From Haloprofundus salilacus (GTDB lineage: Archaea > Halobacteriota > Halobacteria > Halobacteriales > Haloferacaceae), in assembly GCF_020150815.1 (NCBI RefSeq), contig NZ_CP083723.1, positions 2,976,001-3,040,000 of the forward strand: a stretch of 64,000 nt of DNA, written 5' to 3'. Both the position numbers and the translations under genes were made by a program. Positions 23,738 through 27,100 of this stretch are shown here, one piece after another; position 1 is the first letter of the stretch, and each line of letters starts with the position of its first letter. The notes beneath the pieces were generated by a model. That model saw only the letters and a list, made by a program, of their open reading frames with translations. It ran no database searches and was not told the origin of the DNA.

Positions 23738-24127
23738 ATGCCCACGGTAGAATACCTTAACTACGAAGTACTGGACGACCAGGGCTGGGAGATGGACGAC
23801 GACGACCTCTTCGACAACGCGGCAGACGCGGGACTCGACGACGAGGACTACGGATCGCTCGACGTCAACGAGGGCGAATATATCCTCGAAGCCGCCGAGG
23901 CGCAGGGCTACGACTGGCCGTTCTCGTGCCGCGCAGGCGCCTGTGCGAACTGTGCCGCCATCGTGTACGAAGGCGAAATCGAGATGGACATGCAGCAGAT
24001 TCTCTCCGACGAAGAAGTCGAAGAGAAGAACGTCCGTCTCACCTGCATCGGTTCGCCCGCGGCCGACGAGGTGCGCATCGTCTACAACGCGAAGCACCTC
24101 GACTACCTGCAGAACCGCGTCATCTAA
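23738..24127 (+). CDS. Halo-type [2Fe-2S] ferredoxin
   Basis: A 129-residue plant-type ferredoxin with cluster ligands C64, C69, C72 and C103 (CRAGAC, then NC, then TC in LTCIGS). A haloarchaeal acidic insert of about 30 residues (residues 13-45, many Asp/Glu) precedes the fold. This matches the 128-residue ferredoxin well known from Halobacterium, an electron carrier for 2-oxoacid:ferredoxin oxidoreductases. Net charge is strongly acidic, as expected for high-salt cytosol. The start is ATG 23738. Confidence 0.95.
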
Positions 24128-24379
24128 ATCTCGTCGTCAGTACAAACCCGATTCCGCGAATCGCGTTTGGACCACGGTACTACGAGATAAGCGGCGGTAA
24201 ACGCGCTGTAACCAATTTTCTCATGTTTTAACAAACTGCCGTTAGAAGAATCCACTGAACTCAAACAATTCACTGACGATTCTTCTGGAATACGTGTGGA
24301 AGTTTAGGTTGGCGCGTGTCGGGTTACTGACTCGGTGTTCGGTGTGAACGAATCAAATCACTCAGTACAGGCCTCTAAG
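24128..24379. other. Gene-free, AT-richer spacer downstream of the ferredoxin with a 9-bp inverted repeat
   Basis: About 250 bp without a supportable gene, visibly AT-richer than the coding DNA around it. A perfect 9-bp inverted repeat AGAAGAATC (24244-24252) and GATTCTTCT (24278-24286) brackets a 25-nt loop that itself contains CACTGA twice. It may be a terminator, the stem of a small RNA or an element border. No choice between these can be made from sequence alone. Confidence 0.5.
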
Positions 24380-24770
24380 GTGACCTCCTCCCCGTCGTAA
24401 CCGACGGGGCTTCCCACGTCCGCACCGCTGGGTTGGGATATTTGCTGGTAGACGACCGGTCGGCATGACAGGCCGATGGCGGGGCCACACCGCCGTTACT
24501 CCTATCGCCGCCAAGGGGACTCGGAGTTATCTTGACCGAGACACCACATCGGTTCGAGAGGGTGTCTCGAGCAGTCTGGGTCTCGGAGTCCCGATAGTGT
24601 GCATTTAGGTGGGCGATGAGACCGCCTCGGTGTACGTCATGCGACGACCCGTGATTACTTGAATATCCGTATGAGCGTCAAAATGCAGTCTGTGGAGGAG
24701 GTGTCGGATTCACGCCCGCCATAAACGGCGGGATTCTCTCCTCGAAGAAAGATAGAGGCGTACACGAAGA
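24380..24770. mobile_element. Noncoding IS200/IS605 (TnpB-type) remnant or PATE-like mini-element
   Basis: The minus strand near 24380-24420 reads a GTGGGAAGCCCCGTCG...CGACGGGGAGGAGGTCA block, with an 8-bp stem (24390-24397 and 24402-24409) and a TAAC-type loop. This resembles, from memory, the right end that follows tnpB genes in haloarchaeal IS1341-type elements, where the guide (omega/re) RNA ends. On the plus strand 24714-24732 holds a second hairpin, CCCGCC-ATAAAC-GGCGGG, inside another block (GATTCACGCCCGCC...GGGATTCTCTCC) of the same appearance. No transposase or TnpB frame remains between them. The two ends point outwards. Palindrome-associated transposable elements of haloarchaea are a known parallel; assignment is inference. 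Confidence 0.45.
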
Positions 24771-24823
24771 CATCCCGAAGAACCTACTCACTGCGATTTC
24801 CCACGTCGCCTGCGTCGAACCGT

Positions 24824-25177
24824 TTAGTTGAGTCCGAGGCTCAGCTTCAATGCGTCGTCTACCTGACTCATTGTTCCTGCGTCCAGATTCCCGACGACCG
24901 AGTGAATCCGCTTCTCGATGGAGACGACTCGAATCTGGTCGAGACGAACCGACGAGTCCTTCTCGAACGGCGAATCGTCCGCTTCGACCAGTACCTCGAA
25001 TGGGTAGCCTCGGTACGTGCCAGTCGTGGGTGCAAGGATGGTCGTACTCGAATTTGCGTTCCCGACGTCGTTCTGGACGACGACCGCCGGGCGGGTCTTC
25101 TTCATCTCGTGGCCTTCGGCAGGGTCCAACCGGACGATGACGACATCGCCGCGTCGGATTTCAGTTTCGTCGCTCAT
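24824..25177 (-). CDS. MazF/PemK-type toxin (endoribonuclease)
   Basis: A 117-residue protein with the family order RRGDVVIVRLDPAEGHEMKK (from residue 8), KKTRPAVVVQND (26-37), the TTILAPTT beta strand and the VRLDQIRVVS strand at 77-86. These form the CcdB/MazF barrel; the basic Arg near residue 29 and the Thr/Ser near 48-52 are the usual catalytic positions. Such toxins cut RNA at short motifs. The start codon overlaps the antitoxin stop by 4 nt, the classical layout with the antitoxin first. Located beside a mobile-element remnant. Confidence 0.85.
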   Translation of the reverse strand: MSDETEIRRGDVVIVRLDPAEGHEMKKTRPAVVVQNDVGNANSSTTILAPTTGTYRGYPFEVLVEADDSPFEKDSSVRLDQIRVVSIEKRIHSVVGNLDAGTMSQVDDALKLSLGLN

Positions 25178-25410
25178 TCAGCCAGCCCGCTCCACGCCTC
25201 GTCGGACGTGTCGTCCCACTCGTTGGCCAACGACTCCGCACTTTCGGATGCTTCCCGATAGGCGGCGGCGAGTTCGTCTCCGTCGGGCCGGTCGTTTTCG
25301 ACTTCTACCACCGCGACGGTCACGCGCTTGTTCGCGTACTCCGTCCCGAGGTAGATCCGGCCTCGGTCGTCGGTGTCGTTGGTTCGCAGGTCTCGGGCGT
25401 CTACTTTCAT
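25174..25410 (-). CDS. AbrB/MazE-like antitoxin
   Basis: A 78-residue acidic protein starting at ATG 25410; a GTG 12 bp further up (25422) would overlap the operator repeats. The N-terminal DDRGRIYLGTEYANKRVTVAVVEVE (from residue 14, shown here only in part by RGRIYLG and KRVTVAV) is an AbrB/SpoVT swapped-hairpin DNA-binding pattern. The acidic, helical C-terminus (about residues 42-78) should neutralise MazF. It overlaps the toxin gene by 4 nt. The gene is probably autoregulated through the direct repeats just upstream. Confidence 0.8.
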   Translation of the reverse strand: MKVDARDLRTNDTDDRGRIYLGTEYANKRVTVAVVEVENDRPDGDELAAAYREASESAESLANEWDDTSDEAWSGLAE

Positions 25411-25414
25411 CGTG

Positions 25415-25465
25415 TTGCCCACTATGACCCACGGCCCGATAACACTTGCCCACTATTGCCCACGG
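25415..25465. promoter_or_regulatory. Direct repeats at the toxin-antitoxin promoter, likely operator
   Basis: Two 20-bp direct repeats lie 5 and 36 bp upstream of the antitoxin ATG: TTGCCCACTATGACCCACGG at 25415-25434 and TTGCCCACTATTGCCCACGG at 25446-25465, 18 of 20 bases identical. Each contains two half-sites of the form TTGCCCAC or TGACCCAC, so there are four. Between them (25437-25445) is the TATA-like stretch of the minus-strand promoter at about -30. This arrangement fits cooperative autorepression by an AbrB-like antitoxin. Confidence 0.65.
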
Positions 25466-25653
25466 GACAGGGAAAGTGAGGCAACTGCCGAAAGAACTGC
25501 GTCATCTAAAGCGCGGCGCGCTCTCACCCAGTATATTTTAGCCGTATCCGCGGTGGACACAGCCCCCGCTCTCCCTCTCGATAGCGATTGTGACATGTCT
25601 CTCACCGCGACGAATCGAGTTCGACACTGAGAAACCGAACGGTCTCGCTCGGC

Positions 25654-26910
25654 TCAGAGCACCGACTGCGCCAGGCCGAGGAAGATGAAGAACCCGAGAA
25701 CGTCCGTTGCCGTCGTGATGAAGATGGTCGCGGACGTCGCCGGGTCTTTCCCGATTCGATCGAGCGCCAGCGGAATGATCGTCCCGAAGAAGCCGGCGAT
25801 GACGAGGTTCAGCACCATCGAGACGCCGAGGACGAGTCCCAAAAGCGGACTCTGATTGAACACCGAGGCGATAACCGCGACGAGGACGCCCGTGATGAGT
25901 CCGTTCGCCGCGCCCGCGAGAATCTCGTTCATCACGGCGCGGTTCCCCGTCGACAGCGAAATCTGGCCGAGGGCGATGCCGCGGACGGTCACCGCCATCG
26001 ACTGCGTGCCGGCGTTGCCGCCCATCCCGGCGACGACGGGCATGTACACCGCCAGGAGCGTGAACGCTGCGATGGTGTCCTCGAAGATGCCGACCGCGGC
26101 GGCGGCGAGGAACGCCGTTCCGAGGTTGATAATGAGCCACTTGTATCGGTGCCGTACCTTCGAGAGCGGCCCGTCGAGGATGCTCTCCTCCTCCTGGACG
26201 CCGGTGAACTCGTAGAGCGTCTCGGCCGCCTCCTCCTCGACGACGCGCAGGAGGTCCTCGGCGTTGATGACGCCCAGGATGGAGCCGTCGACGTCGAGAA
26301 CAGCCACCGAACCCTCGGGATGCTCTCTGAACACGTCGACGACGTCCGTGTCCGTCGTATCGTACGTGACCGCGGGTGTCTCGCGGACGTGATTACGGAG
26401 ATCGACCACGTCCCCGTCGCCCATCGCCAGCACCTGTCCGGGGAGTTCGCCCAGAAGCTCCCCACCCTCGGTGATGAAGATGGTCGGGATCCGGCCGGTT
26501 TGGGTCTCGAACCGCTGTACCCGCCGCGCAATCGCGTCGACGCCTCTCTCGACGCCGACGGTGACGTAGTCGAGGTGCATCAGGCCGGCGGCGCTCTCGG
26601 GGCTGAACCCGAGCAGAAACTCGACCTTCTCCCGACGGTCCTCGTCGAGCCGTTTGAGCACCGCCGAACGTGTCTCTTCGCCCGCGAACCCGAGCACGTC
26701 CGCCCCTTCGTCGGGATCGAGCCGTCGGACGAACCCCCGCAGTTGCTCGCGGTCCATATCCTCAACGAGCGACTTCCGGACTGTCTCCGGGAGGTGAAAG
26801 AACACCTCCCGTTGGTGGCTCCGGGAGAGCTGTCCGAACTCCGCGGCCGGATTGGGCGAGGCCGCAATGGCCTGTTGAACGTCCGCAGTTTGCTCTTCCA
26901 TATCCCACAT
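25654..26910 (-). CDS. mgtE: MgtE-family magnesium transporter
   Basis: A 418-residue Mg2+ channel/transporter. The soluble N domain (about residues 10-110) is followed by two CBS domains (about 120-245), the second carrying GSILGVINAEDLL. The C-terminal membrane domain of five helices begins near 260 and contains the conserved pore segment MPVVAGMGGNAGTQSMAVTVRG. CBS and N domains sense intracellular Mg2+ and gate the pore in MgtE. ATG 26910 (MWDMEEQT) or ATG 26901 can be the start. The gene is divergent from a GntP permease. Confidence 0.93.
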   Translation of the reverse strand: MWDMEEQTADVQQAIAASPNPAAEFGQLSRSHQREVFFHLPETVRKSLVEDMDREQLRGFVRRLDPDEGADVLGFAGEETRSAVLKRLDEDRREKVEFLLGFSPESAAGLMHLDYVTVGVERGVDAIARRVQRFETQTGRIPTIFITEGGELLGELPGQVLAMGDGDVVDLRNHVRETPAVTYDTTDTDVVDVFREHPEGSVAVLDVDGSILGVINAEDLLRVVEEEAAETLYEFTGVQEEESILDGPLSKVRHRYKWLIINLGTAFLAAAAVGIFEDTIAAFTLLAVYMPVVAGMGGNAGTQSMAVTVRGIALGQISLSTGNRAVMNEILAGAANGLITGVLVAVIASVFNQSPLLGLVLGVSMVLNLVIAGFFGTIIPLALDRIGKDPATSATIFITTATDVLGFFIFLGLAQSVL

Positions 26911-27100
26911 AGTACCACTTCGTCCAAATGGTTGTGGTGGCTGCGTCGCTTCGGCGCATCACCTCCGCTCAGTTTGCCACCTCTCTCGCTTACCGTACGA
27001 ACTAATCAAGACGTAAGTAATGATATTTGCCCCTTACCAGTATTCAACGATTCCTAACAAATAAGTGCGAAGGTGGTGGTTACTACGCTCGTAGTTTCCC

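Follow-up and report, generated by a model that had tools for sequence, protein, structure and literature searches.

A 372-bp element in a gene-free gap

The window, by which we mean the whole 64,000-nucleotide stretch of Haloprofundus salilacus DNA that was analysed, has a gene-free gap between a ferredoxin gene that ends at 24127 and a PemK/MazF-type gene on the minus strand (24824-25177). No tnpB or transposase frame is present between 24128 and 24824, as the preliminary description had stated. The gap holds one copy of a non-autonomous IS200/IS605-type element of the palindrome-associated transposable element (PATE) class. This element lies on the minus strand, where it begins at 24751 and has 24380 as its last base at the right end. 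It and its termini are as follows.

24380-24751, minus strand: whole element, 372 bp, without genes; ends precise by alignment of many insertions with unrelated flanks
24752-24755, minus strand: CTAT, the target or transposon-adjacent motif (TAM) beside the left end
24702-24751, minus strand: left end (LE) with the near-terminal palindrome CCCGCC-GTTTAT-GGCGGG (24732-24715)
24390-24409, minus strand: right-end (RE) hairpin CCCCGTCG-GTTA-CGACGGGG

The near-terminal palindromes are IS605-like, there are no terminal inverted repeats, the element is too short for a transposase and the flanks of many insertions reveal no target duplication. It contains no open reading frame of 80 or more amino acids, and neither the tnpA nor the tnpB of which autonomous IS605-type elements carry one or both. 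All hairpins and inverted repeats named in the preliminary description are present in the sequence, the outer two as CCCCGTCG/CGACGGGG at 24390-24397/24402-24409 and CCCGCC-ATAAAC-GGCGGG at about 24715-24732, and the inner two as CGAGACACC/GGTGTCTCG at 24537-24545/24561-24569 and, for GGGACTC/GAGTCCC, as GGGACTCGGAG/CTCGGAGTCCC at 24516-24526/24582-24592.

The roles of the two outer hairpins are given by L059, an intact relative in a same-genus genome with a tnpB of 418 amino acids. In L059 an LE that matches the 24715-24732 block (93% over 54 nt) is followed by tnpB, by the tnpB 3'-end segment (85%, 60 nt) and by the RE (80%, 79 nt). The LE of the window element is also 92% identical to that of a TnpB element on contig C2 of its own genome. 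Approximately 10 intact loci have the order seen in L059, in the majority with CTAT preceding the LE, and since the block order is the same throughout, the two hairpins mark opposite ends of a single element. The refuting observation named beforehand, that no haloarchaeal genome would have either block beside a tnpB gene, was not made, as both blocks flank tnpB in these loci. Thus, the suspicion that the blocks are ends of the kind that flank tnpB in haloarchaea was borne out, while their reading as two outward-facing right ends was not: both belong to a single minus-strand element, 24715-24732 at its left end and 24390-24409 at its right, and the end order in intact tnpB elements rules out opposed right ends.

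Of the three origins that had been offered, two are jointly supported, namely a palindrome-associated mini-element and a guide-RNA locus that stands alone and would act with a TnpB elsewhere. The third, a decayed pair in which each of two opposed elements left a right end, would account for two different hairpins within a gene-free stretch; it is already refuted, because intact tnpB elements carry the two blocks as LE and RE of one element and the 372-bp unit is conserved whole in many genomes.

With regard to the surroundings, approximately 2.9 kb of the window (24128-27100), from the ferredoxin gene to a GntP-like permease gene, are absent from two same-genus genomes, in which the permease gene stands within about 300 bp of the ferredoxin gene. 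Within this stretch lie the 372-bp element, an MgtE-like gene and the PemK/MazF-type gene, which has a small gene as its partner.

Copies, target sites and mobility

A search of the same genome with 24340-24800 yielded two further copies that cover almost all of the query, copies 2 and 3; over the exact element they lie at C1:2608396-2608767 (99%) and C1:1819498-1819869 (98%). A minus-strand alignment of all three shows 372 bases in common and unrelated flanks. The stretch is not a chance sequence, since, besides these two copies at 98-99%, it is present in many other haloarchaeal genomes. A family-wide search gave matches at E ≤ 1e-15 in 42 of 170 genomes, some of them comprising only the ends common to tnpB elements. 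Many are full length (1-372), 77-87% identical, without tnpB and present in several copies per genome; one genome (G146) has at least four identical copies, and as up to four candidates were scored per genome the copy numbers are lower bounds. Plasmids also carry full-length matches, at 82-89%.

The 41 copies that were parsed, representing 24 distinct element sequences, follow the pattern CTAT/CTTTC...GTCAC/ (slashes mark the element borders) and continue into unrelated sequence. The preceding motif is CTAT in 37, GCAT in two, CCAT in one (copy 3) and AGCG in one. The element is mobile, as it occupies three sites in its own genome and, where copies 2 and 3 are inserted, same-genus genomes show the flanking sequence without it; the immediate flanks there have diverged and the exact junctions are not fixed. 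Two same-genus genomes have the flank past the RE of the window copy, CTTAGAGGCCTGTACTGAGTG, in the form ...TATCTAT/CTTAGAGGC..., located where a small ORF ends (94% and 91% over approximately 68 bp), an arrangement that fits an insertion of the window copy after CTAT. This flank corresponds to window 24311-24379 and extends over 68-70 bp after the small ORF in the two genomes, G004 and G001; the left flank of the window copy differs from theirs, so the site seems to have been rearranged since the insertion.

Several copies have taken up additional sequence. Inserts of approximately 45-60 nt with strong hairpins are found in L157, L160, L169, L180 and L182 and in L174 and L176-L179, where they lie in the RE hairpin loop, in the LE hairpin loop (L169) or in an omegaRNA hairpin, and they are reminiscent of PATE-targeting SMR elements. 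G001 has a further short element (L063, C1:108300-110600), about 0.5 kb long, with ends of the same kind and a different interior, and a sequence of about 30 nt beside copy 2 (L066, approximately 505-545) is repeated many times in all five same-genus genomes.

An omegaRNA-like 3' part with a shortened stem

The 3' half of the element is homologous to the omegaRNA of haloarchaeal TnpB, known as sotRNA; sotRNAs are treated as omegaRNAs (PMC12558985). It contains the following features.

24389-24532, minus strand: omegaRNA-like scaffold of the sot0042 / sotRNA type, matching Rfam RF02656
24484-24488, minus strand: pseudoknot 5' strand GTGGC, in a hairpin loop and complementary to the terminal GTCAC
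24380-24384, minus strand: pseudoknot 3' strand GTCAC, the element's final bases at nearly all copies
24452-24479, minus strand: shortened stem 3, in place of the long tnpB-coding stem of L059 and its relatives; four pairs changed on both sides

The match to RF02656 (sot0042), the model of a sense overlapping transcript from haloarchaea, covers model positions 1-174 of 174 with 57.5 bits (E 8.4e-14), which is below the gathering score of 88 and, with stem 3 shortened, does not confer family membership by that cut-off. The other two copies in this genome score 57.5 and 57.1 bits over the whole model, and intact relatives with tnpB reach 92-94 bits, which exceeds the gathering score. The scaffold reaches the transposon right end and has a 3' pseudoknot, a layout as in PMC10097598; it overlaps no 3' end of a tnpB, the element having none. 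The GTGGC site is at -109 to -105 in the window element and starts at -137 in L059 and at -152 in L016, a TnpB element of the same genome. Thus, the element retains the pseudoknot, whereas the stem that encodes the TnpB C-terminus in intact relatives has become shorter in it.

Of 17 distinct copies, 11 have a stop in the residual tnpB frame after 9-12 codons, which indicates that protein coding is not what is kept; in the other six, the window copy among them, the frame ends after 27 or about 51 codons. A coding remnant is ruled out by these early stops together with length changes in most copies.

A conserved 5' domain and covarying helices

Upstream of the scaffold lie two further conserved features, of which the first is a candidate promoter and the second would form the beginning of an RNA that is predicted to start at about 24640.

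24657-24668, minus strand: TATA-like motif GGATATT(T/C)AAGT, candidate archaeal promoter
24533-24640, minus strand: 5' domain of the predicted RNA, conserved and structured; helices 1 and 2 have pairs changed on both sides

Among 17 full elements, with the spacers inside the element serving as an internal reference for drift, mean pairwise identity is 0.89 in the LE, 0.64 in the spacer that follows, 0.89 in the TATA-like motif, 0.58 in the second spacer, 0.875 in the 5' domain and 0.89 in the omegaRNA (0.84-0.93 for its individual parts). The TATA-like motif could have another role, since the window copy has C instead of T and a similar GGATATTC stands upstream in tnpB elements of clade A, whose TnpB is at least 83% identical to that of L059. 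The 5' domain gave no BLAST match to L059. Its hairpins are GGCGGT/ACCGCC and CCGAGRC/GTCTCGG around GTTCGAGA/TCTCGAAC, and as its middle is almost invariant, the structure is only partly backed by covariation.

A search with the 5'-domain pattern retrieved 36 stretches in named genomes of many haloarchaeal genera, among them Halorubrum, Halolamina, Halobacterium, Halarchaeum, Haloquadratum, Natrinema, Natrialba and Natronococcus. The same 372-bp architecture in many genera rules out the fresh decay of one local IS, and a viral origin was rejected as the pattern is absent from viral contigs. Separately, a Halorubrum tailed virus has a single LE-like match of 42 bp at 98% (OP630574.1:25251-25292).

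A nine-helix structure was assessed on 22 sequences of less than 97% identity, in which 95.6% of cells are paired. Two-sided changes were found at 11 pairs compared to 4.2 in shuffles, none of 500 shuffles scoring as high, and compared to 1-4 in slid controls, over which the structure is favoured because it was drawn on one of the 22 sequences. Four of these pairs belong to stem 3 and three to the RE hairpin (helix 9), which is also a DNA signal for transposition. RNAalifold, run unaided, likewise arrived at this stem 3 and at the greater part of the RE hairpin. As a stable helix, GGGACTC/GAGTCCC has no clear covariation support, its 3' arm being shared with the 5' stem of the omegaRNA; when folded alone, the window sequence does pair the two arms, which makes a switch possible.

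These data bear on the main alternative, namely that the element is an ordinary PATE that arose by deletion and is moved by TnpA in trans, its omegaRNA part being a passive relic without TnpB function. A tnpB C-terminal remnant is known from other PATEs, HqIRS71 (PMC3119063) and one in Halanaerobium (PMC7290912), and a 52-bp ends-only PATE of the ISHwa23 type appears mobile (PMC3119063). However, if short ends were enough, drift would be expected in the 260 inner bases, whose identity is instead 0.84-0.93 against 0.58-0.64 in the spacers; in addition, the changes in stem 3 preserve pairing and the omegaRNA pseudoknot is retained. We consider a passive relic unlikely.

Alternatively, the RNA may be retained for a job other than guiding, for instance to occupy TnpB as a decoy or regulator and so protect the element or the host, or to serve as a cis structure for TnpA on single-stranded DNA. 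A 5' domain that is very conserved and has no match in L059 would suit a role beyond that of a standard omegaRNA, and single-stranded DNA could also form much of the structure. Against this, scaffold and pseudoknot reach the exact element end, as a guide needs, and CTAT agrees with the TAM position of intact relatives, so that we give a non-guide role little credence.

Candidate partner proteins

The genome has 24 matches to the TnpB zinc domain and two TnpA-type matches, one intact (133 amino acids) and one with a stop. Among the TnpB loci with recovered frames, the nearest to the L059 type is L016 (C2:83.7-85.0 kb), which encodes an intact TnpB of approximately 440 amino acids with 55% identity; the family-wide search likewise gave one such match in this genome. 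L016 has its own sot0042-like RNA with the same GTGGC/GTCAC pseudoknot and a long stem 3. No clade-A TnpB was found in this genome, only the 55% identical clade-B protein, and because the latter goes with a long-stem-3 omegaRNA, loading across clades is an assumption. TnpB of the L059 type (E ≤ 1e-110) is found in 22 of 23 carrier genomes and in 94 of the 147 others (Fisher p = 0.001, in a test that ignores phylogeny and uses a carrier set chosen by hand).

A proposed use of TnpB in trans

We think that the element probably belongs to a guide-RNA-only transposon lineage that is moved by TnpA in trans and uses TnpB in trans on the empty site, a reading drawn from sequence comparison. TnpA supplied in trans would move the element via the two near-terminal hairpins, and the element's own promoter would drive an RNA of approximately 260 nt that runs past the right end into the flank. 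TnpB from a related element, here most likely the intact protein of about 440 amino acids encoded at C2:83.7-85.0 kb, would load this RNA, with the flank beside the RE acting as the guide.

24360-24379, minus strand: flank as would-be guide, CTTAGAGGCCTGTACTGAGT; first bases past the RE, with a CTAT-flanked near-match in two same-genus genomes

The complex would then cut CTAT-flanked copies of the empty site, either after excision or on sister chromosomes, and repair from a filled copy would lead to retention and spread of the element. Haloarchaea are generally polyploid. As to its history, on balance we favour, somewhat more cautiously, a long-lived guide-RNA-only lineage that lost its nuclease, came to have a shorter omegaRNA, acquired a promoter of its own and a new domain at the 5' end of the RNA, and lives in trans as a parasite on the TnpB, and also the TnpA, of related elements.

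The usual view is that a TnpB omegaRNA forms part of the tnpB transcript. If the proposal is correct, a widespread RNA-only element would mean that in nature TnpB acts in trans on many guides, like Cas12 with CRISPR RNAs, and one nuclease serving many insertion sites would constitute a natural trans-acting multi-guide system and a testable step from a transposon nuclease to such systems. It would also help to explain the persistence and spread of PATEs in haloarchaea. The element further offers naturally compact omegaRNA scaffolds. Our literature search found no direct description of TnpB guides supplied in trans by MITE-like elements, and we do not claim priority for the idea of trans guides.

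Comparison with known systems

The PATEs of Haloquadratum walsbyi (PMC3119063), HqIRS71 in particular, and the PATE-like element of Halanaerobium (PMC7290912) are alike in having near-terminal palindromes resembling those of IS605-type elements, no terminal inverted repeats, no target duplication, a size too small for a transposase and a retained tnpB 3' part, a segment that the descriptions consulted do not treat as a guide RNA. Compared to these descriptions, the element in the window stands out as one lineage spread over many genera with a short-stem omegaRNA, a TATA-like motif and a 5' domain.

In the omegaRNA of ISDra2 TnpB and its Trim2 version (PMC10097598), pre-guide bases form a pseudoknot with a site approximately 105 nt upstream, at -103 to -105 compared to -105 to -109 in our element, and loss of the flexible part of stem 3 (stem 3b) was tolerated and raised activity. 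The element has a comparable deletion, which is natural whereas that of Trim2 was made in the laboratory; the likeness is one of architecture, not one found by sequence comparison.

Further close counterparts are the IS1341-type tnpB elements with a sot0042 omegaRNA, such as L059 and the source elements of the H. salinarum sotRNAs (PMC12558985). These are alike in the LE, the RE hairpin, the CTAT target, the 5' omegaRNA stem and the GTGGC/GTCAC pseudoknot. In contrast to them, the 372-bp element lacks tnpB, has a stem 3 that is shorter by approximately 30 nt and carries an extra 5' domain that was not found in L059.
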